Shown here: piece by piece, positions 387 to 18,000 of the stretch
Position numbering within the stretch: the stretch's first letter is position 1
Layout of the letters: each line of letters begins with the position of its first letter
IMG/VR virus record: IMGVR_UViG_3300050821_009262
Coordinates: 1-25,062 of that record
Length of the DNA: 25,062 nt
Strand: one strand, 5' to 3'
DNA from: a virus
The notes under the pieces: generated by a model
What the model saw: the letters and a program-made list of their open reading frames with translations, nothing else
Databases searched by the model: none
Told to the model about the DNA's origin: nothing
Made by a program: the position numbers and the translations under genes

Positions 387-548
387 TCAATCTTTATGAC
401 GTTCCCGACGCTTCAATTCCCGCTCTACGGCCTTACGGATGAAATCCGCTCGTTTCTCGCCGTCATCCAATACGGCGTCCATTCGACTGAGTGTCCCAGC
501 CGGGAGCCTAGCGGGAATCTGTTCCTCATTTATGCGTTTTCGCCCCAT
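387..548 (-). CDS. Ribbon-helix-helix (CopG/Arc-type) transcriptional repressor, 53 aa
   Basis: The layout is that of a ribbon-helix-helix DNA-binding protein: a short basic N-terminus and strand (residues 1-16, with RLPAG), helix A (about 18-29) and helix B with the FIRKAVEREL motif (about 36-46), then a charged tail. Such proteins bind palindromic operators as dimers through the beta ribbon. I prefer the ATG at 548 (MGRKR). The frame is also open to an ATG at 584, but that codon lies inside an operator palindrome and would add 12 uncharged-looking residues not expected in the family. It is the only leftward gene in the early region and faces the operon from 656 onward across a symmetric promoter region with TGATATCA palindromes. 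It is probably autoregulated and also represses the rightward operon. The fold call is fairly secure; the target is inferred from context. Confidence 0.75.
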   Translation of the reverse strand: MGRKRINEEQIPARLPAGTLSRMDAVLDDGEKRADFIRKAVERELKRRERHKD

Positions 549-574
549 CTGGACCCGCTCATATGCATAAATAC

Positions 575-614
575 ATGATATCATCTATTGACTATGGCAA
601 TATAGGTGATATCA
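575..614. promoter_or_regulatory. Paired TGATATCA operators between divergent promoters
   Basis: There are two copies of the same palindromic core: ATGATATCAT at 575-584 (10-bp perfect palindrome) and TGATATCA at 607-614. Their centres are 31 bp apart, close to three helical turns. One copy overlaps the rightward -10 box. The other lies just downstream of the inferred leftward start. I noticed no other full TGATATCA elsewhere in the window. They are probable binding sites for the ribbon-helix-helix protein encoded at 387-548; the pairing of protein and site is inference. Confidence 0.55.
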
Positions 615-615
615 T
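588..615 (+). promoter_or_regulatory. Rightward sigma70-type promoter for the small-gene operon
   Basis: TTGACT (588-593) is followed after 16 nt by TATCAT (610-615), which resembles a housekeeping promoter. Transcription would start near 622, ahead of the AGGAGG ribosome site at 644-649. The -10 box overlaps the TGATATCA palindrome at 607-614, so a bound repressor would block it. Confidence 0.6.
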
Positions 616-655: not shown

Positions 656-763
656 ATGCAGTACGATCACCATTATCTGCTTTGGCTCTATGAGCAAGGA
701 TACGGGTCGCACAGCTTCCGTCGTTTAGTTCTGGCTGGTTATGTTTCGAAAAGTCTCCAGTAA
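656..763 (+). CDS. Very small hypothetical protein, 35 aa
   Basis: An ATG at 656 follows a near-perfect AGGAGG ribosome site (644-649) with 6 nt spacing, and a TAA closes the frame at 761-763. It is the first gene after the rightward promoter. The peptide is rich in Tyr, Leu and His, with a pattern like a short helix (LLWLYEQGYGSHSF) and no clear membrane span. No family is recognised. The strong ribosome site and position make it a likely expressed micro-protein or leader peptide rather than chance. Confidence 0.6.
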   Translation: MQYDHHYLLWLYEQGYGSHSFRRLVLAGYVSKSLQ

Positions 764-779
764 GCGGGGAATTTGTGAC

Positions 780-1013
780 ATGACCGCCATTTTTGTAAAT
801 GGGGTGAAGCATCGCTTCCCCGAAGAACTCATCGAATGGAATGACATCAAACAGCTTGCCGATCCCCACGACGAGAAGGGACTTTTGATTGTCAAATATT
901 ACTACATCGACCACGCCGATATGTATCGCAGTGGCTATCTTGAACCCGGTAAAGATCGAATAGCCGTTGTCGAGGGCATGAGGTTTGCCGCGATACATAG
1001 CGGCGGCGCGTAA
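780..1013 (+). CDS. Multiubiquitin/BilA-like beta-grasp (ubiquitin-like) protein, 77 aa, ending Gly-Gly-Ala
   Basis: The product reads as one ubiquitin-like beta-grasp domain of the bacterial multiubiquitin type. It has a first strand with FVNG (residues 4-7), a strand and helix with WNDIKQLA (about 23-30), a third strand with IVKYYY (about 41-46), then GYLEPG (about 55-60) and a last strand VVEGMRF (about 65-71). The order VNG, hydrophobic-x-x-I-x-x-LA, V-x-Y, G-x-L-x-x-G, then (E/D)G-M/I-x-F matches members of that family as I know them. The C-terminus is Ser-Gly-Gly-Ala, so a Gly-Gly sits one residue from the end, as in ubiquitin-like proteins that need trimming. I start at the ATG at 780 because the frame upstream (from 741) overlaps the preceding gene. 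The ribosome site is weak. No E1, E2 or JAB gene is visible in the window. The call is from motif pattern only. Confidence 0.5.
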   Translation: MTAIFVNGVKHRFPEELIEWNDIKQLADPHDEKGLLIVKYYYIDHADMYRSGYLEPGKDRIAVVEGMRFAAIHSGGA

Positions 1014-1247: not shown

Positions 1248-1281
1248 CCCAACGCCGTCATGCGACGGCATGGAGAGGATG

Positions 1282-1686
1282 ATGTCTCAGGTTGTCACCT
1301 TGGCCGGCGCTCCGCACGTTCTATGGCAATGCAAAACCTGTGGCGTCTTAGCGACGTGCCCGGAGGTCGTCTATGACCAGCACCGCGCCGAAGGCGGCTT
1401 TCATTTCTGCCCGAATGGACATTCGTGGGGCTGGTCAAAAGAGAATTGCGAACGTGAGGAACTGCGCCGAGAGCGAGATAGGCTCAAACAGCAGGTCGCC
1501 GCGCGTGATGATGAGGTTGCGCGCCAGATAGCTATGCGCAAGCAGATCGAAGGCAAGCTTGGGCGCGTGACCAAGCGTATCAATCACGGCGTTTGTCCGT
1601 GCTGCAACAGAACCTTTGGGAATCTTGCACGGCACATGAAATCGAAGCACCCGAACGTGGTGCCGCTCGAACAGAAAACCGCGTGA
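1282..1686 (+). CDS. Zn-finger phage protein with N-terminal Cys/His ribbon, coiled coil and C-terminal C2H2 finger
   Basis: There are three parts. The N-terminal third carries a possible zinc ribbon (CKTCG, then a later CP and an FCPNGH motif). The middle is a charged coiled coil of about 50 residues, rich in Arg, Glu and Gln. The C-terminus has CPCCNRTF followed by LARHMKSKH, a C2H2 finger. This arrangement is familiar from small proteins of many proteobacterial phages whose role is unknown. DNA or protein binding is likely. The frame is open from an ATG at 1270, but the GGAG at 1272-1275 lies 6 nt before the ATG at 1282, so I choose 1282 (134 aa). Confidence 0.7.
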   Translation: MSQVVTLAGAPHVLWQCKTCGVLATCPEVVYDQHRAEGGFHFCPNGHSWGWSKENCEREELRRERDRLKQQVAARDDEVARQIAMRKQIEGKLGRVTKRINHGVCPCCNRTFGNLARHMKSKHPNVVPLEQKTA

Positions 1687-4118: not shown

Positions 4119-4482
4119 AATTTTGGACCTGTTGCCGGAGGTTGATGATTGTCCGGTCGCGCGCGGCAATGACAGGGCCATACTTCGCCTCAGCCGCCTT
4201 CGCGGCGTCGGTGTCTCGTGCTTCAGCCTCTTTGGCAATTTTGGCATTCGCCGCTACCCACACTGCCCTCTCATCGACGCGACCGACGTGGTTTTCATAG
4301 AGACCAGACGCGTACGCGACGCTGACGAGCACGGCGGCCCTTATGGCGAATGCGCGCGCCGTGGGATCGAGGTAGGCCAAGACCGCCAGCGCGACAAGTA
4401 CGCCGACCGAAATGCCGGTCAGCTCACTGATATGGGCGATCTCGCGCCAGATATCGCCGAGACCGGAGAGCATCTCAAACAT
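4045..4482 (-). CDS. Rz-like inner-membrane spanin (i-spanin), 145 aa
   Basis: The N-terminal third holds two hydrophobic segments (about residues 22-39 and 45-61). Next comes a periplasmic Ala/Glu/Lys-rich coiled coil (about 70-130, with AKIAKEAEARDTDAAKAAEA) and a short tail. This fits an i-spanin, although lambda Rz has only one N-terminal helix. The ATG at 4482 overlaps the endolysin stop by 8 nt. The 3' end overlaps the Rz1-like gene by 74 nt. Role: partner of the o-spanin in disrupting the outer membrane. Confidence 0.7.
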   Translation of the reverse strand: MFEMLSGLGDIWREIAHISELTGISVGVLVALAVLAYLDPTARAFAIRAAVLVSVAYASGLYENHVGRVDERAVWVAANAKIAKEAEARDTDAAKAAEAKYGPVIAARDRTIINLRQQVQNYARSIKSAPACPIGAPALRLRLIS

Positions 4483-5356
4483 GGTCGTTCAGCAGTTTTT
4501 GCCGGCGGTCGTACCAGACGTACGCGCCGAGTATTAGGAAACCGATACCAGCGGCCAGGGCGAACTCGTGGGAATGGGCGAGCGTGACGAGATGGTCCCA
4601 GACCCCGAGATTGGTCAGGTTGTCCTTCGTGGTCTGGATCGGTGCGCTCGCGTCATTGAACTGGTCGAGGAAGGCCCTGATCGCCAGCCAGATGCCGCCG
4701 GCGCCGGTCGCGGCGCCCGCCGTGCCCGAGGTCGAGCTCGCCATGCTCTTCGGCGGCTTCGTGCGCTCGCCCTTCGGGCACACGGTGGTTTCGGAGGGGG
4801 CTACCTGGGTGGTCGCTTCGGTCTCTGGGTCGTCCGGCACGTTGGCCCATGAGATTTCGGCGTTGCGCCGGCGCACGAGACCCTGCATGCGCTCGCCCTT
4901 CGAGTTCACATATTGCAGCATCGCGCGCTCGGCGCCGGGCCAGTTGCCGGCGTTCACGAGGCCGATGACGTGCGGCGACGCCGATGGGCAGTTAAAATCG
5001 AGATCGGCCAGTGCGTCGAATTGGTGCTGGGTGACCGACACCTTGAGCAGCCGATTTACGCGCGCCTCGCACGGCTCGAGGTCGTCGGCGAAGATTTGCT
5101 CGGCCTGCTCGTCGGTCAGGCGCATACCCTGATGGATGCGCGGCGCCAGTCCTGCGACCTTGATCGGGCCGGCGGCGTCGGTGTGACCGATGCCGATGGT
5201 AAGCGTGCCGTGCACGGCGCCGCCTTGCCACTCGGGCTGCACCCACTTCCCGTTGACGTGGACCTTGGCGAGTTTGTCGTCGTAGACGTAGAGGATGCGC
5301 TCCTCCCACGGCTCGGTCAGTTTGGCGCGGCCGGCAGCGCTCATACGCATGGTCAT
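4475..5356 (-). CDS. Endolysin: GH24-type muramidase with C-terminal membrane anchor, 293 aa
   Basis: The N-terminal 170 residues are a phage lysozyme of the T4/P22 type that cleaves peptidoglycan between MurNAc and GlcNAc. The catalytic pattern is visible: Glu18 (in WEERIL), Asp27 (in YVYDD) and Thr53 (in LTIGIGHT). An insert of about 20 residues lies between Asp and Thr. Residues 175-235 form a Ser/Thr/Ala/Gly linker. The tail has one hydrophobic helix (about 264-282, FALAAGIGFLILGAYVW) followed by basic residues. That tail is an oddity, because classic GH24 endolysins are soluble or carry an N-terminal SAR signal. The ATG at 5356 overlaps the upstream stop (TGATG). It starts the lysis cassette with Rz/Rz1 downstream. 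Confidence 0.85.
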   Translation of the reverse strand: MTMRMSAAGRAKLTEPWEERILYVYDDKLAKVHVNGKWVQPEWQGGAVHGTLTIGIGHTDAAGPIKVAGLAPRIHQGMRLTDEQAEQIFADDLEPCEARVNRLLKVSVTQHQFDALADLDFNCPSASPHVIGLVNAGNWPGAERAMLQYVNSKGERMQGLVRRRNAEISWANVPDDPETEATTQVAPSETTVCPKGERTKPPKSMASSTSGTAGAATGAGGIWLAIRAFLDQFNDASAPIQTTKDNLTNLGVWDHLVTLAHSHEFALAAGIGFLILGAYVWYDRRQKLLNDHV

Positions 5357-5547
5357 CACAGCTTTCCCAGTTTTTTGATCACGTCCTCGATTCCCTCGGT
5401 CACGTATTGCGTCGCCGCTTCGCAAGCGATGCAGGTGTTCGCATTGCTGTGACCGGTCCCGGCGGCGACCGTGACTTCCTCGACCGTGTCAGGATCGATG
5501 AAGCACGGCCGCCCATCGGGGCGCGTGAAACGGACCAGTCGGCCCAT
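5356..5547 (-). CDS. Small FlbD-like hypothetical protein, 63 aa
   Basis: The product has a beta-rich start (RLVRFTRPDGRPCFIDPDTVEEV) resembling the small FlbD-type fold, where a short strand pair and the I-(N/D)-P-(D/E)-x-(I/V) motif are typical. It ends with a helix (EGIEDVIKKLGKL) as FlbD proteins do. Two Cys occur mid-chain (TCIACE). The ATG directly follows the upstream TAA with no gap, and the stop overlaps the endolysin start, so translation is coupled. The phage role is unknown; resemblance is by pattern only. Confidence 0.55.
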   Translation of the reverse strand: MGRLVRFTRPDGRPCFIDPDTVEEVTVAAGTGHSNANTCIACEAATQYVTEGIEDVIKKLGKL

Positions 5548-6033: not shown

Positions 6034-9000
6034 TTATTGGTTCAGGCCCAACGCATGCCCCAGATCCATGAGTGGCTTCTCCGGGTGCCGGGGCGCCCCT
6101 TCCCACGGGTGCTTGCTTTCGATCTTTCGCTCGCGCGCGATCGCCTGATTAGCCTTGTCGTAATCGGTGCCGTAGAAGACGCGGCCGACCGGAATGTCGG
6201 AGGGGACGATCGGCTGGCCTTGGCCCACGGTGCTGAAGACCTTGGCGGCGTTCTCGATCGTGCGCACCTGACCGCCGAAGTATTCCTTCATGATGTAGGC
6301 GATGTCCTCGGGGTAGAAGTCGAGGTAACCCGAATGCGTGCGGTTACCGCCGCTGACATTGTTGAGGAACTTCGCGATATCCTTCCACGCCGACGGCGTC
6401 CATTTGAAGCCGGACTCGGCGTTCGGTCCTTTCTGCATATCGGTCGTCGTGTGGATATGGCCGCCGGTCCACGATTTGTTGAGGCCGATATCCATGAGCG
6501 GCTTGATCTGCTCCGGCGCGATGTCGCGCCAGGCGACGCCAGTTTCGCCGATCGGCGAAATAGCTGAGATCAACGATTTTATCGCCTGGGCCGCATAGGT
6601 GGCGGCCTTCTCGGTTCCGAAGATCATGCCCGCCGCGGCGTAGCCGAGCGTGAGCGGAAAAGCATAATTGAAGGGGAACGGAAACTGGATCGGTTGCGGA
6701 CGGCCTTTCTCGTCCGACAGGCCGATGAAGAGAGCGAGCTGCTTCGTCTTCGTCCACTCCGGCAACTTATCGAAGAACGCGATTTTGTCTTTGTCCTGGC
6801 CGCCGAACGCATAGTTCCAGGCGGCTGCACCGAACCCCATCGCCATCGTATAGAAGAAGACCTTGCGCATGATACGCGATCGGCTTTGCGCTGCGCCCAT
6901 CCGGTAGCCGGTCTGGGTGGCGACGTTCTGGAACGGCTCCCACAGGGCCAAGTAATTCGACAAAACGCCGCGCAGGTTATAATCGACGGTCGCCTCACGG
7001 GCGGTCATGCTTGCCTGCTGGATCGACTTGCCGGCTTGGCGCGCTTGGACAAAGGCAGAAAGGCGCGTCGAATTGTCGATGATGCTGGTCCACATATCGA
7101 CGGTTTCGCTGATCGCGCGGGCGAGTTCGCGGGGATCGTATTCGCTACGGCCGATCGATGCTGCCTTCTTGCGCAGCCGGTCGAGCATCTGATCGTATTC
7201 GCGCATCGAGAACATCGACATTGCGCCGCCGCCCTCTTTCATCTGCTTCCAGTAGTCACCGAGCGGTCCGCCGTCGCGGCCGTGCTCAACATTCCAGATC
7301 GCGCGCGTCGCGTTGCCGATGAAGGGGAAGGCATCGGTCATGTACTGTAGCGCGCTGAAATTGCCGTGCTCCTTCTGCTCGTAGGCGTTGAGCAGCCCCT
7401 CGACGAAATAGCGCGCCGCGTGCCGGGCCATGAATTCCGGGTTATAGTGGGTGAGCAGGCTCTTCCATTTGCCGAGAATGTGGTTGGCGATCTGGATGAT
7501 GGCGTTGGTTTTCGGCGACCACATCTTGACCGCGCGCGCCAGGCGTAGATCGTCGAACACTACGTACTGGTCCCGGCCGCGCACCTTCATGTGCACGGCG
7601 TTCTCCCGGCGCTGGTCGTAGCTATCGTCCGTCCATTTCACGAGGCCGGTGGAGCGGTCGATCATCCGCTTCGGGCGGCCGCGGTCGATGGTGATGCCCA
7701 GTTCCTTGCGCACCTCGGCGCCGGCGGCATTGAGCATGCGGGCGAGGCCATGGAGGGCGAGGTTCTTCTCGGCCCGGTCGATGGTGCGGAGCGCCTGATC
7801 GACGAGCGCCACGACGGGGTTGTCGGCCTTGCTGCGGCGGCCTAGCGCGCGCTGGGTCTCCGGCCCCTTGATATCGCCGCCATAGCCTTTCGGCCGTTGC
7901 TCGGCGAATTGCGGGGCGTTGGTGGGGTCTTCCCAGCCGCGCAGGGGCACATAGTTCGGGCTCGAACGCCACCACTCGGAGATGGTCTCCTGGCTCTCGA
8001 GGCCGCCGCGGATCATCTCGCTGCTGATGAAGCGCCGGATCTCGCCGACGCGCTGCGCGAGCTCGCGGAAGGCGTCCCCCTTCGGACCATGTTCGAGATC
8101 GAATGCGATCCGTCTGGCGTCGTTGGTCGACATGCCCGAGGCGCCGACGACGTCGTGGTCGGACACAGCCCGGTAGAAATCGCTGCCCGGCTGGTGCAGC
8201 CGGCCGACATTGTCGTTCCGCTCCGGCGCGTGCTTGGCGTAGACGTAATCACCCGCCTCCTGCGAGCCGATATGGCCGATGCGCATCGTGTCGGCGAGCG
8301 GCCGGAAATACTCCGTCATGAAGGTCTGCATGCGGCTCGCGCGCTTGCCGGGGAACAACCGCTTAAGCTGGTAGAATTGCTGGTCGTCGGGCAGCGGCGA
8401 TTCGCGATCCCTGGCGACCCAGTCGTTCGAGCGCGCCTCGACGGCATTCTGCATGCGCTCGACGCGCGCGTTCCAATCCTGGAAGTGCTCCTTGGTCCAG
8501 AGCATGCCTTCGGAGCCGATCAGGTCGGCGATCTTGCGGCGGATGCTCCAGGAGGCCGGGTGCAGCGGGTCGTCGAAGGCCGGGCGCGCCATGGCCGCCT
8601 GCGGGCCTTCCTCCGCGTGCTCGATGCGTGCCGCGACCTCGGTGCGCGCCTGCTCCGCGCGGATCTGGTCGGCCATCCGCGAGGGGGCGCCCTCGGCCTT
8701 GCGGCTCGGCCGGGCGGCGAGATCGCCGGCGGCGGCTTGCTCGAAGACGTCGTGGTAGCTGTTGAAGCCAAGGCCGCGCAGGTAATTGGCGATCTGCTGG
8801 AAGAGACGCCGCAACCGCTCGAATAGCGCCCGGATGCCGATGTGCAGGCCAGCGCCATAGCCGCCGCCCTCGCGGTCTTTCATGAAGGCGGTAAACGCCT
8901 CGGCGCGGATCTCGTAATCCGCCATCTTATCGACCAGCTTGCGGACCTGCGCGTCGGTGGCGCTGGGCGCTTCCTGCTTCATGCTGGCGATCGCCATCTC

Positions 9001-12000
9001 GCGAAGGCGCGGCTCTTGCGCCTTGAGAAGACGCATCTCGGCGTCGGTGACGAAATGGTCTTCGATGGCGTGCCAGGACTCGTGATAGGCGGCGTCAAGC
9101 GGATTGATCGAAGGGTGATTGAGCGCGAGCCGGATGATGTCGTGCATCGGCAGGTACGCGCCGCCGACCTCTTCCTTGCGCGCGTGTCCCCAGCCGATCG
9201 GCTTCATCGCGTAGCGGCCGCGGATGTCGACGGCGACCTGCCTGCCGGTGAGGTGCTGCACTATGGCGGTCAGGCGCCGCGCAAGGTCCTCGCGCAGCGG
9301 CGCCGCCTTCGGCGTCAAGGCGGCGGCGAGCGCCGGCCGCGCCATCGGGGCAAGAAGGTCGCCCTCGGGTTCGGCCTCTTGCGGCTCCGCAGCGCCGCCG
9401 CGGCGCCCTTCGGCCTCTTTCGTCCGGCGGTCCAGCTCGGCGACGATGGCGGCAAGGCGCTCGCGCATCGTCTTGAGCTCGCCGGCGAGCGGAAAGCCTT
9501 CGCCACGCTGCGCCTTCAGGCTCGGCAGCGTCCGCTTCGCCTCGTCGATCCGCTGCTGCATCCACGCGCCGGTCGAGCGCGCGTTGCCCATGATATCTTC
9601 GCTCAGTTTTTCGAGCGCGGCCTGGATACGGTTTGGACTGATTGAACGCTCGGTTCGGCCGCTGATAGCGGCGAGCGTACGACCACCCTTGGTAACGGCG
9701 AGCACGATATCGGCGAAGCTCGTGCTCTCGCCCTGCACAGTAGCGCTTACGTCCGTATCGAACATGCGCCCCAGCGGGACCACCTTGGTCTCGTTGTTTT
9801 TTACGCTGTCGAGCGCGGGCTTCACCTTCTCGGCGATGGCCTTGCCGGCACTCCAGCGGCGCCGGAAAGTCTCTCCGCCCATCGTCATCTCAAATGGCAC
9901 GCGGGTGTCGCCGAAGGCGTTGCGGATGGCCTCCTCGATCGCGGTCTTGTTGGTCAGCGCCGCGCCCTCGATGTTGACGGTGTAGGGCGCGTTCTCGTCG
10001 CCGCCCTTTTGCGTGGCAATCGCGTCTGCCGCTGCTTTCTCCGCACTGAAGTCATCAAAGTGCTTTTTGCCCTCGATAGTGATGGAGCGCGAGCGGACAG
10101 CGTCGAGCAAGGGGTCAACGAGCTCGGAGCGCACCTCGGCGGCGTTGAGCTTTTCCTCTTCGATCTTTGCCGGATAATCCCTGATCGCCCGCTCGGCGCT
10201 GGTGATTGCGTCCTCGATGCCGAACATCTTGCGCCGGTAGGCGCGCTCCTGCATCTCGATCTTCTCGATCTCGCCGCCGAGCTTGACGCGCTCGAGGAGG
10301 AGCGGGTCGCCAGAGGCAAGCGCGGCGATCTCGGCCATGCTCACCGAGTCGTCGTCCTCGAATTCCATATTGAAGGCACCGTTATACTTGCGGATGCCGT
10401 TGACCATCTTGAGCTTCTGGGAATTGAGGTCCCACATCTTCGCGTCGACCGTGCGCTCGGTCGCATAGGCGAGGATTTCCAAGGCGAACTTGTCGCCGTA
10501 TTTCTCAAGGAGCCGGTTGCCCTGGCGGATGCCGCGGCCTTCGCGCTGCTCGATGTCCGACGGCTTCCAGGTCACATCGCCGTGGTGCAGCCCGACGATG
10601 CGCTCCTGCACGTTAGTGCCGGCACCCATGCGCGCGGTCGAACCGATGAGCACACGGATTAGGCCGTCGTTGACGGCGTCGAATATCGCTTTCTTCTCGG
10701 CGTCGCTGCTGGCCTCCTGGATGAACCGGACTTCGTCTGCCGGGATGCCGCGCGCGATCAGGTTTTTTTTCAGTTGGTCGTAGGCGTTCCACCCGCCCTT
10801 CTGCGCTTGGCGCAGTTCCTCCATTTCGGCAGGGTGGTACTTTTCGAGGTGATCGGTGATCTCGCGGTAGGTGGCTTCGTCTCCGGCCGTGAGTGCCGCA
10901 TCGCGCTTGGCGACCAGGCCGTCGTATTCCTTCAGGATGCGGTCGTCGCCCTTGGACTTGGGCACACTGCGATCGAGGAAGACGAGCTGCGTTCCCTTGT
11001 CCTTGCCCCACGCCTTATGCAGGCGCGCGACGTTGTCGGCGATGACGTCGACCTTGCCACCCTTCTCGTTGCCCGGATAGACGGTATGGGTATTGATCGC
11101 CCGCACATCGAGCGAGAGCTTGCGCGCCTTGTCCATGAGGCGCAGTCGGGTCGCGTTGCGCTCATCCGGGTCTTTGATGTTGGGAAGATCGTTGAACGCC
11201 GCGACGATCTCCTCGAGCATCGTCTGCTGCGCGCGCGTCGGCTTGACAATGATCTCCTGGCGGCCGCCGCCCTTGACCTCCGGCACCGGGAACCGCGCGC
11301 CGCCGTTATCTTCTGCGTACCAACGGTTGATGTCGTCCTGCGAAACGGCGTCCGTGAAGGAGTAATAGAGCTCCATCAGCGCGCGCATGTTCGACCAGGA
11401 CCGGCCGAGCCGCGTGACTTCCTTGAGGCCTCCGGCTTCGGTCGGTTCCCATTTCGGCTCCGCCGAGACCGACTGCGCGCGCCAGGCGTCGAAATGCTCA
11501 AGCCCGAGATCGTGCAGATCCCGCGCCGCGAGATAGCGCATCATCGTGTACATCTCGACGGCGCTATTCGAGATCGGCGTTCCGGTCATGAAGGTGACGG
11601 TGCCGGTCGGGCTTTCCCGCAGCACGCGCACCTTGTTGTAGAGATCGAACGCCTTGCGCGAGCCATGCTTGTCGCCCATTCCCCGGACGCCCTGCAGGCG
11701 CGAGGAATAGAAGAGGTTCTTGAACTCGTGGGCCTCGTCGACGGTGAGATCGTCCACACCCATCTGCTCGAACGTCAGCATGTTGTCGCGGTTCTTCGAC
11801 CGCAGCGAATCCATGCGGGTTTCGATGGTGGTGACCAGCCTTTCAGCCTCCTTGACCGTGAAAGGCTTGCGGCCGCCGCCGATGCCAGATGCCTCGGCCT
11901 CTTCCTGGGCCTCTCTCACGGCGTCTTGCGCGACGCGCAGTTCCTCATCGAGGAAGCGCAGCTCGGTGTCGGGCGAGATGCCGATAAAACCGAACGACGA

Positions 12001-15000
12001 GTGCGGAACGATAACGAGGTCCCAGTCGCCGGTCGCGATCTTGGCAAACAGGCGCCGGCGGTTCTGCTTATCGAATTGGTTCTTGCCGGCCGCGAGCACC
12101 TTGGCGCCGGGATAGAGCCGATAGGTGTCGGCCGCCCACTGATCGACGAGATGGTTAGGGACCGTGACCATGGGCTTGCGCGAAAGGCCCATGCGGCGGC
12201 GCTCCATCGCGCGCGCGATCGCCGTGAAGGTCTTGCCCGCCCCGACGACGTGGTCGAGCAGCATGAAGCGCTCGTAGATGCCGCGCCAGATCGCGTTCTT
12301 CTGGTGCCGGCGCATCTTGATGACTTCATCCGGCACCTTGCCGGGAAGCGTCAGATGCGAGCCGTCATGCTGCCGCGTGACGCGGGTGTTGAACTTGTCG
12401 TTATAGATATCGACAAGTTGATTGCGCCGGTCCGTATCGGCAAACACCCAATCAGCGAAATCGTTCTGTATCTCCTTCGCCTTTATCACCACGAGTGCCG
12501 AGGCTTCCTTGTCCTCGTAGCGGTTTTTCTTGGCGTCCTCGCGGATGACTTTCGGGATACGGGAATTGAGCATGCCGCGCAGGATGGCGTCGGCCGGCAT
12601 GTCGTCCGTGCCCCACTGGGCCTGCTTGTCCTGCCCGTAATCCCCGACCAGGAGGTTGAAGCTGTTCGTCGCCTTCGAGTAATTGACGCGGCCCTTGGCG
12701 CCGAGAAGATGCTCGGCGTAATCCTCGTAGATCTTCGGCGGTATCCAGTTGGCCCCCGGCAGCGCGGTGACCTGCTCGGCGGTCCACCTTTCCGGCTGGA
12801 CGGCTTCCAGCTCGGTGATGTTCTTTTCGAGACCGGCAGTGATGGCAGCGGCGAGCTTTCGCCTTACCTGGCCTGACAGGTAGTCGTTGCGCGGTTCCCA
12901 CTCGTTCGTCTCGGGATTGAAAAAGGCGAGTGGCTTGTCGCCCTCGCCGAGCTTCGCCGCGGCTTCTTCCTCGGAGACGCCAAGAAGAGTGGCGACACGC
13001 GGCAGGTCGATCTTGCCTCTCTCGGAGAGTGAGATTGAGAGAGCGTCGGCCGGGCTCTTCGCCGAGGTGGGTGCCTCGTATTTCGGGATGACCCGCCGTG
13101 AAAGAATGGCCGCCGGCGTCGCTGTCGCCGCGCGCGGCTTGTCCCCGGTGCGCGCTGCCTTGGCCGGCGTGATCGGCGGCCGGTATCCGCTTTCGAGTGC
13201 CGCCAGCAGCGCGCCGTCCGGCATCTCATTGACGAGCGCGGCATTGCGGGGTTCGTTGAGCAGCCCGTTCTTGCCGGTATAGCTCTTGTAGGCGGTCGCA
13301 AGGAGACGCCGGTTTGCCTCCATGCGCTTTGCGTCGGCGTCCTCGGTCTCGAGCACGATTTGCTTTTTCGTCAGGTCTCTCAAGCGTGCGAGGTCTGAAA
13401 GGCGTTCGAACTTTGCCTGCCCAAGCCGCATGCCCGCCGGCACGTCATTGTTCGGAAAGTATTTGCGCTCGTAGACGTTCCGCTTGCCCTGCTTGAGCTT
13501 CTCGCCCTTCTCGTTGACCGCCGGTTCGAGCGTGTACCATTTGCCCTCGCGGTCCATGAGAAGCTGTCGCGACCACGGCGACTCGGGCGTGAGCGCGCGC
13601 CGTGTTGCCTCGAAACCGCCAGACGGCGTCTCCTTCTCGGCGATCTGGGTGAGCTGGCCCTTGTCGTCGAACTCGATGTGCCCGGTCTCATGCCCGGCGA
13701 GTGCGATCTTGAGCGCGTCCGACATGGATTTGTGGCGCTCGATCGACGCTTTGGCGATGTCGGGCGAGAGATTGATCGCGTCCTTCGGTAGCGTGCCGAT
13801 GGCCTTGTCAAGCAACGCGCCGAGATCTGCGTTCTTGTCGAGCGTGACATTGACGCCTTTGCCCTCTTCGCCGGCCCGCTGCATCGTCCCGGAGCGTTCG
13901 AGACGCCCCATGACCATCTTCGGATTGCTGGCGAAGTAGGAGTTGACGCTCATCGGTTCGCCGCCGAGAGGGTCTTTCACCTCGTCGGTGTCGATCCACG
14001 GCGCCATCCGCAGGAGCGTTTCCCTCGCGGCTTGGCGCGCCTCGTCTGCCGCTTTGCCCTTCCCGGGCTGCCGCATGTCGGCGATCAGGTTCTCGATGGC
14101 CTTCTCATCTTCCGCGGTCCGGCGCCGCATGAAGACGATGTCCGTCACCACCTCGGTGCGCGCGTTCTCTTTGAAGGCGGTATCGGGAAGGCGGATGGCG
14201 CCGAGCAGGTCCGCCTTTACCGCCATCTTCTCGCGCGCGCTACTATCGCGCGCATCAAGGAGGTATCGCGAGACGACTGCGGCATGCAGGCCGCCCGGCT
14301 GCAGCGCGTCGAGCGCCGCCAGGAAGAACTGATTGTGGATCGAAAGACCGGCGAGCGCCGGCTTGTATTGGAAGCGAAGCGACTCCGAGCCGAACGGCGG
14401 ATTGCCGATCGAGAGCACGAATTCGCCGTCGGGCATTGGCACGCGCTGGAAGCCCGAATGCAGGACAGTCTCCTGCGGATATAACAATTTTGCGATGCGC
14501 GCCGTCAGACTGTCGAACTCGACGCCGATAAACTTGGTATGCGCGGCGAGATGATCCGGCACCAGACCGAGGAAATTGCCCGGCCCCATCGAGGACTCGA
14601 GCGTAAGACCACCCTTGAAGCCCAGGTGCTCGACCGCCTTCCACATGGCGTCGATAACCGGCTTCGACGTGTAATGCGCATTGAGCGTGGTGCGGCGCGC
14701 CGCGCGCAGCTCGTCCTTGGTCAGAAGGCTCTCGAGATTGTTGCCGCGCTCGGCCCAGTCCGGCTTGAATTCGTCGGTCTGCGGCGAGCGGAAGGCATTG
14801 GCGAGACCGCCCCAGCCGACATAACGCGCGAGGATGCGCTGCTCGTCCGGCGTTGCCCGGCGCTCGTCGCGCTCGATGTTCTTGAGCGCCGCGATCGCCG
14901 TGAGGTTGTCGTTGAATTTTTGGGTTTCGCCGCCTTTGCCGAGACCGAGATCTTCCCTGATCCGGAAGTTCTGCTCGGGGACGTTCGGCTCTATCCGACT

Positions 15001-18000
15001 TGCACTGGCGGGGCCTTCAGATAGTCCTGATCCATCTGGTGCAGCTCGGCCCTCTGCTCCTCGTCGAGCCCGTCCACTTCGGGCGGCAGCAGCACGTAGT
15101 CCTTCAGCGCCTTTTCTCTCGCCTCGTGCTCCTGGTACCCGTTCGCCTTGAGGTGATCGATTTCCCTTTGCGCCAGGTTCGCCGCGCCCTCGAGATCCTC
15201 GTTCAGCGTTCCGTTCGCCTGCGCCTCCCGATACTTCTGCGGGAGCCACTTCTGCCAGTGGTCGTTCGCCAGCGCTTTGAGTTCCTGCACGCTCATCGGG
15301 TGCCTCTTCCTTAAATTTATCACCCGGGCGCTCGCCGGCAAGGTCTTCGCGGGTGATTTTCCCGGCTTTGACCTCTTCGATGAATTTCTGCACGTAGGGC
15401 TGGACGCCTTCCAGCATCTCGCGGGACCAGCCATAGGCGTCCTTGAGCTCGCCAATCATCCGGTCCATCAGCTCGTAGATGTCGTCAAGGAAGGCCGAGA
15501 AGCGGCTGGCCGCCTTGATGAAATGCGGCTTTGCCTGCTGATAGGTCTCCGGGTCGAAGGCCGGCCCGGCGCCGACGGTCTTGCCGCCGCCGAAGAGCTT
15601 GGTGAGGGCCTGCATCGCCTCTTCGGCCGAGCCGCCCAGGTTCTCCGCGGCGCTCTTGGCGACCTTCCTCGCGGTGCGGCGGCGCGGTGATTCGGTGGCC
15701 TTGGCGGTCTCTTCGGCGGATTGCTCGGCGGCGTCCTCGCTCGCGATTGCCGCGGCGCGATCGTCCTCGCGCGGTCCGAATGCCTTGTCGAGCGATTGCT
15801 TGAACCGGCGCTGGAATTCCTCGTCTACAGGAAGCTCAGTTGCAGAGGGGGGGGGAGCCCCGGTCGGGGCTGTCGTCCACTCTTCGCGTTGTGCTTCAAG
15901 CTGCTTCGAGGCGGCCTCGGGTAGCCATTCGGTCGACTTCTCCTCCTGGATCACGCGCGCTCGCGCTTCGCGCTTCATCGCAGTCACGGCTTCCGGATCG
16001 AAGAAGCTCTCTAGCTCGGACGCGGTGTCCTGGAAAGCGCGAGCCGCCTCCTGGATGTCACGCGTGAGTTGTTTGATGTATTTCTCGGGCGGCGTACGGC
16101 CCGGCGGTTTCGTTTTTCCGGACTTAATTTCGGCCCGCAATCTGCCGGCGCGACGCATGACGGCTTGGTCGTTGACCATGCTGTTGATGGTCTCGTCGAG
16201 CATGCCCGCGACTTGCGATGCGTCGTAGCTCCCGTCCTCGTTCGCCTCGCCGAAGATCGGGCCACGCTGCTCTTCGTAGGCCGCCAGCTTCTTCTCGTTC
16301 GGCGCTGGGAATGTATCGTTGAAATCCCACGGGCCTTTGTCGGTGAGCTTCACCGTCATCGGCTCGCCGGTATCGGCGGCTTCTATCTCGCCTTCGCGTT
16401 TTACTTTCGGTGTTTCCGGCGCGCGCGCCTGTTCGACGAGGTCGGTTTGCTTGTGCTCGTCGCCGAACAGCCCTTCGTCGGCCGGCTTCTGATTGACCTT
16501 CGGCTTTAGGCGCTCGTCGGCTCGTCGCTGGGCGAGTTCGGCGTCGGAGATGCGTTCTGCGCCAGGGAGGACGTGCTGTTGGCCGGCTGCGGTGCGCTCG
16601 GTGCTGGGTTGTCGTTCGCGCTCGGCTGAGGGCTGCTCTCCTCCGGCAGCGGTCCCGCGTTCCGCGCTTCCGCTGCGTTCGCCAGCTTGAGACCGAGCCT
16701 CGCCGCCTTCTGATATTGCGGGCGCCTCGCCGGCACTCTTCTCGCCAGCTTGCGGAAGCTGTGCGCCGCCGCCATGAGCCGTTTCGTTCTTGGTCTCACT
16801 GACTGCCTCTTGTCGTTCGGTGGCCGCTTCCGATTCTTCAGCCTCGAACACGACCGCGTCATGCTCTGCCTTGAGGAATGCAGCGTCAATAGCATCGATC
16901 GGTTCGTGGCCGTGGTCGATCATCCGGCCGATGGCATCGTTCCAGATCTCGTCGGGAACCTCGTCGCGGCCGATTTTCGCCTGCTTGAGCGCTTTCTTCA
17001 GCTTCTTCTCGTGCTCGGCGACGAGTTTTGCCCGTTCTTCGTTCGCCTCGGTGACGGTGCGCCCGTGGCGCGCGGCTTCCTCGGCGCGGTGCGATTTGAA
17101 TGTGGTGACGGTGCCTTCCTGCCCCGATTCGCGGCGTTTTTTGGCCGCCGCCCGATACTCTTCGGCGTTCTCGACCATGCCCGCGAAGGGCGCGCCGCCG
17201 GTTACACGGGGGGCATTTTCGGCATGTTCACGTTGAGCGGCGTTGCCGGCTTCCACGGCGTTGCCTTGGCCAGATTGCTCGGCTGCAGCTTCGGCAGCGC
17301 GCTCCCCGCCGGCGGGCTCGCGAACGGGATGCTCTCCTGCTTCGCCACCGGCGGCTTCGCCGTTGTCATGCTCGGCACCTTCGGTGCCTTCAGTTTTGGG
17401 GCCTTCGGCGGCTTCGCCAGCCCGCTGGTGAGGTTCTTGTGGGCGAGCCGCGCCGCCGCCACGAAGCTGTTCGCCCGCTGGCGCGGCAGTCTCCCCACGA
17501 GCTGCGGCGCTTGATGCCGCAGGAGGTACGACGAGTGCAGGTGCTCCTGCGGGTTCCAATAGAGCGTGGATTTCTTCACCGTACTGCTCCTTGACCTGCT
17601 CCGGCGTCATTAGGCCGTCCTCGACGGCGGCGCGCACGACGGCGAGTTGGAAGGCGTCGGCTGGCGGCAGGCCCTCGTTGGCGTGGATCTCGGCGGCGCG
17701 CGCGATATCGACCGGTCGCACCTGGTGCGGATCGACGCCCACCTCCTTGAGCGCGGCTTCGACGGCGGCGTGGTCACGGGGTGACGTCTCCGGCCCGCTT
17801 GAAACGACAGAACCCCCCTGGGCGGCAGAGGGGTTTTGTCGTTCCTCCGGGGTAAGATCGGCCTCCCGGGCACCCGTCTTAGGGTTGTTCGCCCCCTCTT
17901 CGGCCGGCTTTACATCCGGCTTTACACTATACATGGCATCGGAGAGCGGCTGGCTCAGGTCGCCCTTGGCCCAGTCCTTGAACTCCGGAACCGACATCGC

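Follow-up and report, generated by a model that had tools for sequence, protein, structure and literature searches.

Two described bacterial systems come closest to the phage gene discussed here. In the first, the ISG15-like protein BilA has two domains, its C-terminal glycine is exposed by the JAB protease BilC, and it comes with BilB, BilC and BilD (PMC11354881); Bil tags the central tail fibres of phages (PMC12948488). The second is the Bub pathway, whose operons are present in hundreds of bacteria and for which protection against phage has not been shown, according to the passages of one source that cite Ye et al. 2026 (PMC13373217).

The window is the whole stretch of DNA that was analysed, a 25,062-base virus contig from IMG/VR that represents a fragment of a phage. 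The gene of interest lies in an arm of small genes and encodes a protein of 77 residues in an intact reading frame ending in FAAIHSGGA (Table 1). An in-frame ATG further upstream, at 741, is not needed, and the start given in the table fits because matches to the family profile begin at residue 2–3. The preliminary description of this locus had recognized a ubiquitin-like protein (Ubl) of the multiubiquitin/BilA kind from a series of short motifs and a Gly-Gly one residue before the end. All of these are present (VNG, WNDIKQLA, VKY, GYLEPG and EGMRF, with G75-G76 followed by A77), as are all seven residues that are invariant in the Multi_ubiq family.

Table 1. Features of the window around the Ubl gene and further downstream.
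Feature	Position	Strand	Basis
Divergent 65-aa ORF, ribbon-helix-helix repressor-like	387..584	-	by eye
Sigma-70-like promoter match, TTGACT-16-TATCAT, TG before second hexamer	588..615	+	weak match
Promoter match overlapping the preceding one	627-599	-	
35-aa ORF, AGGAG upstream, ends 16 nt before Ubl start	656..763	+	sequence
GGGGA (purine-rich), possible ribosome-binding site 9 nt before Ubl ATG	766..770	+	by eye
Ubl ORF, 77 aa, orphan single-domain Ubl (Multi_ubiq / Bub type); ATG at 780, stop 1011-1013	780..1013	+	ORF reading, profile matches, alignments
GM-R-F motif and 10-residue C-terminal tail (RFAAIHSGGA)	975..1010	+	tail length, column counts
Gly75-Gly76 codons	1002-1007	+	
Terminal Ala77 codon	1008-1010	+	
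Next gene downstream of Ubl, 67 aa	1044..1247	+	no E1, E2 or JAB match
138-aa phage protein, Cys/His clusters, phrog_33336	1270..1686	+	E 1.8e-17
Phage lysozyme	4475-5425		
4710-aa polyvalent protein	6034-20166	-	

The match of the protein to Pfam Multi_ubiq (PF14452) is sub-threshold, at 15.8 bits against a gathering cut-off of 24.5, and covers only residues 4–34. Two profiles built without the protein nevertheless recover it. One made from E1-linked bacterial homologues scores it at 30.3 bits (E = 9.5e-9) and one made from four other phage homologues at 38.1 bits (E = 2.3e-11); in both cases it is the sole match among the 413 open reading frames of the window, and the best of 5000 shuffled sequences reached 8.9 bits. 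Homology across the whole Multi_ubiq domain is thus statistically clear, and the family profile matches a solved multi-ubiquitin protein, PDB 9CD2, along its entire length (E = 9.6e-19). Given the recovery by profiles that exclude it and the match to 9CD2, the ubiquitin-like identity is secure: the product is almost certainly a highly diverged single-domain Ubl of the Multi_ubiq family, and its homology to 9CD2 points to a beta-grasp fold. The likeness to multiubiquitin proteins proposed earlier therefore stands, and that to BilA gives way to a closer one with Ubls of the Bub pathway. Membership of the BilA group was rejected, as the family profile does not reach PDB 8U38. With BilA the phage Ubl would share the multi-ubiquitin superfamily and the beta-grasp, which BilA carries as repeats, but it is single-domain, with no ThiF or Prok-JAB gene in the 25-kb record.

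Searches made directly with the 77-residue protein returned nothing in IMG/VR, GTDB genomes or plasmids, and its phmmer matches to trypsin in the PDB were noise. The bridge to the family was a near full-length tblastn match of 27 per cent identity (E = 3) in LR756511.1, a 595-kb uncultured phage, which was also the only one found by tblastn among 50,697 GenBank phage records. The homologue in this phage is 148 residues long, and its C-terminal domain, just above the Pfam Multi_ubiq cut-off, matches proteins annotated as 'multiubiquitin domain-containing' on alphaproteobacterial plasmids.

Each of these plasmid genes is followed by genes for a ThiF protein and a DUF6527 protein, and in Pfam the three products are Multi_ubiq, DUF6791-ThiF and DUF6527. 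Pairs of HTH and ImmA/IrrE proteins and a WYL protein adjoin several of the operons, which fits the description of Bub operons; from their gene make-up and regulators we take the Ubl–DUF6791-ThiF–DUF6527 operons to be the published Bub operons. DNA-pattern scans starting from the conserved core of the family gave 112 bacterial loci, all but one with a Multi_ubiq domain, and in 109 of these 111 the E1 protein, DUF6791-ThiF, is encoded in the same stretch. The phage protein is the same domain as the Bub Ubl (PF14452; C-terminal domain of PDB 9CD2) from end to end, with the same G-x-L-x-P-G...GM-x-F core, the same tail length and a C-terminus that needs no trimming. Unlike the Bub Ubl, it ends in Ala rather than Ser (S-G-G-A instead of T-x-x-Ser), has neither the PQHP-like loop nor a pair of lysines conserved in bacteria, has one extra residue after LEPG, scores below the Pfam threshold, and is encoded alone, with no DUF6791-ThiF or DUF6527 gene beside it. 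The preliminary description was right that a single Ubl copy occurs here with conjugation genes absent nearby: none of ThiF, DUF6791, DUF6527 or Prok-JAB was found anywhere in the 25-kb record, itself a fragment.

The C-terminus shows a different regularity from the one first proposed. Between the GM motif and the end of the protein there are exactly 10 residues in all 102 distinct bacterial proteins and in all five phage proteins that are unbiased with respect to their last residue, namely the window protein and those of LR756511.1, L017, L018 and L021, which are mutually 27–46 per cent identical. Ser is the last residue in 101 of the 102 bacterial proteins and Thr stands at -4, again in 101; the residues between them are GQ, GE, DK, VR and others, and in none of the 102 are they GG. 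The unbiased phage tails are SGGA (the window protein), TGDA, TSGA, TSGA and TSDA, and the contrast with the bacterial proteins gives a Fisher p of 6e-8, a value that makes the contrast look stronger than it is because the five proteins are few and not fully independent. Further tails (TSNA, TGSA, TGNA, TGGA and TGDA) came from a scan in which proteins were chosen by an Ala-ended pattern, which makes them unusable as evidence for the Ala or the tail length. A GGA end occurs in two other distinct phage proteins (L174, identical to L175, and L178), and the second Gly falls in a column that varies among phage homologues (G, D, N or S). An earlier DNA pattern for the C-terminus, in which a Gly was kept fixed, matched nothing.

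Judged by these alignments, both groups conserve a tail of constant length whose last residue is small, the ending being T-x-x-Ser in bacterial proteins and [TS]-x-x-Ala in phage ones; the GM-R-F motif and tail together form the most conserved part of the aligned Multi_ubiq family. The preliminary description had staked a functional Gly-Gly on its presence in homologues, and it is absent from all of the bacterial and most of the phage ones. The Gly-Gly is one state of a variable position, the reasoning built on it falls, and a diglycine Ubl of the BilA or ubiquitin type was rejected.

About 14 other phage homologues were found, all ending in Ala (LR756511.1, L017, L018, L021, L168, L170, L172, L174/L175, L176, L178, L179, L180, L181 and the partial L169; the search drew on IMG/VR, the source of L017, L018 and L021). 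Homologues above the Pfam cut-off are L174 (41.0 bits), L036, which is identical to L021 (31.3 bits), L168, L181, L172 and L002. Like the window protein, the phage homologues consist of a single or C-terminal domain with a [TS]-[GS]-x-Ala tail and have no Bub genes alongside; they differ from it in their low identity, their gene contexts and, in some, their fusion to other domains. A segment of three or four residues after the helix (PQHP in many bacteria) is absent from 14 of 14 phage proteins as compared with 53 bacterial ones, and nearly all phage proteins have lost both lysines in the VKVK motif (...SVKVKDGM...), each of which is present in ∼89 per cent of bacterial proteins. When a tree is computed with the last residue left out, the phage label requires two changes, compared with 13.0 in shuffles, and is strongly clustered. 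Branches of this tree are long, that of the window protein the longest (3.48 changes per column), and a single origin of the phage group is neither shown nor excluded by it.

The profile trained on phage proteins, run on 398 sampled Pseudomonadota genomes, gave eight matches, seven of them complete and all only to Bub-type Ubls; the seven complete ones lie next to an E1 gene and end in Ser. Ala-ended orphan Ubls are accordingly rare or absent in bacterial chromosomes and constitute a rare phage group, most of whose members are not accompanied by E1/E2 genes. One bacterial E1-linked Ubl ending in Ala (TGQA) was found, at L060:895-1197. A review of jumbo phages does not mention ubiquitin (PMC13282480), and the passages on ubiquitin in a review of counter-defence concern host systems only (PMC10286901); their silence on phage Ubls, in the second case that of those passages, is weak evidence of novelty.

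The contexts of the phage genes are varied. The Ubl lies between a gpA terminase and a lambda-type portal in L174, directly after gpA in L178 and just after another portal gene in L179; head-joining genes are usual between terminase and portal. In the first two the Ala-ended Ubl gene begins where the gpA-type terminase gene has its stop codon (L174:5430-5642 and L178:5378-5590). In L036 it is near a lysis-type gene, in a 393-kb phage contig it is fused C-terminally to a MazG-like domain beside an HD-domain-hydrolase-like gene (L168:5818-6531), and in L170, L180 and LR756511.1 it is C-terminal to unknown domains. Whole-record searches found no ThiF in 12 of the 16 Ubl-bearing phage records and no Prok-JAB in most phage contigs; no DUF6791 or DUF6527 rose above threshold in the first set of phages. 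Three jumbo phages, LR756511.1, G007 and G010, each have a ThiF and a JAB-like gene separated by a further small gene (L014:1414-3339, L183:480-2067 and L182:1315-3000, respectively) as well as an Ala-ended Ubl elsewhere in the genome. The ThiF of another jumbo contig, G002, was considered as a likely Ubl partner and rejected, as it resembles MoeB sulfur-carrier adenylyltransferases. A MoeB-like adenylyltransferase gene lies near ABC-transporter-like genes in a 512-kb viral contig (L163:5398-6153), where it possibly represents auxiliary metabolism or a mis-binned stretch.

What such a protein might do for a phage can be read in several ways. Our first choice, held tentatively, is that it mimics the tag of a host Bub pathway and so occupies and inhibits the Bub-type E1/E2. 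A beta-grasp Ubl presenting a C-terminal tail of exactly native length would enter the adenylation/transfer site of the host DUF6791-ThiF as a substrate mimic, the altered last residue and neighbouring lysines would make it a poor or dead-end substrate, and host tagging would be competed out or wasted during infection. Binding, inhibition and a benefit to the phage would in this way build on the observed homology, orphan status and tail length. The mimic is favoured by the E1-linked loci in which the same domain occurs and by the phage-trained profile finding only Bub-type Ubls, as well as by the clustering of phage labels on the tree. It is further favoured by the fixed tail of the unbiased phage proteins, since an unused C-terminus should drift. 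The gene also looks like an accessory in a variable arm: two relatives of this phage, 57–60 per cent identical in the polyvalent protein, have different small-gene arms and give no match to the Ubl profile. Against the mimic, positions between terminase and portal and fusions are odd for a decoy, the lysine losses and the deleted loop suggest that the surface for enzyme binding may not have been retained, and by the source cited at the outset (PMC13373217) Bub is not known to protect against phage.

We rate as equally probable that the protein is a non-conjugated beta-grasp adaptor through which other proteins make contact, perhaps during head assembly or in nucleotide metabolism, with no tie to an E1 left. 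The head-gene neighbourhoods, the homologues that form C-terminal domains of larger proteins (one of them MazG-like), the loss of the lysines and the final Ser that mark E1-linked proteins, and the scarcity of ThiF in the carrier records all agree with such a role, but tail length and a Thr or Ser at -4 have stayed fixed despite divergence to ∼27 per cent identity, and the gene contexts are too different for one structural role. A kept tail combined with lost lysines and Ser can be taken as speaking for a decoy or against one; it may mean a dead-end substrate or an E1 that is no longer met, and if the latter, the adaptor role is right.

To extend the mimic reading to all Ala-ended Ubls, as a phage-specific counter-defence class that jams host Bub by tag mimicry, seems rather unlikely, although it would be the first sign of Bub as an anti-phage system. 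Orphan phage Bub tags, in which Ala consistently takes the place of the Ser that would be activated, offer a direct handle on Bub in phage–host conflict. Should they prove to bind Bub enzymes, to compete with them or to poison them, Bub is part of that conflict; should they not, phages have reused the ubiquitin-like fold for something else.

It is improbable that the protein is a truly conjugated tag, one that Bub enzymes of the host or an E1 of the phage would attach to proteins of either partner in a way that benefits the phage. The mature C-terminus of fixed length, which needs no processing, and the ThiF-JAB cassettes of the three jumbo phages would suit such a tag, yet in LR756511.1 the cassette is ∼209 kb from the Ubl gene, the small gene inside the cassette may encode the partner that it serves, and neither the other phage contigs nor this 25-kb record contains it, the record being a fragment of a phage that may have an E1 elsewhere. 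Least probable of all is a functionless, decaying piece of a captured host Bub operon, for although the very long branch and the lack of close relatives in any collection searched would agree with decay, the reading frame, invariant residues and native-length tail are intact and its motifs are preserved in ∼14 related proteins from phages that are themselves unrelated.

The surroundings of the gene plausibly form an early operon, judged from their layout. The 35-residue ORF upstream is probably the first gene of the Ubl transcript, and the promoter match before it is weak because promoter-like sites in the region occur at chance level. Neither this ORF nor the divergent 65-residue one has a match in Pfam. 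Annotation of the Ubl neighbours as E1, E2 or JAB was rejected; the 67-residue product of the next gene gave no match to those families. Leftward lysis genes, with the lysozyme, follow downstream of the short genes, and the gene for the polyvalent protein takes over half of the record; relatives of this protein at ∼25 per cent identity occur in Vibrio phages of 59–62 kb, and further ones in Burkholderia, Stx and Ruegeria phages. The 138-residue protein has homologues ∼33–37 per cent identical in Gordonia and Mycobacterium phages, which is unexpected given that the module adjoining its gene relates to phages of Gram-negative hosts.
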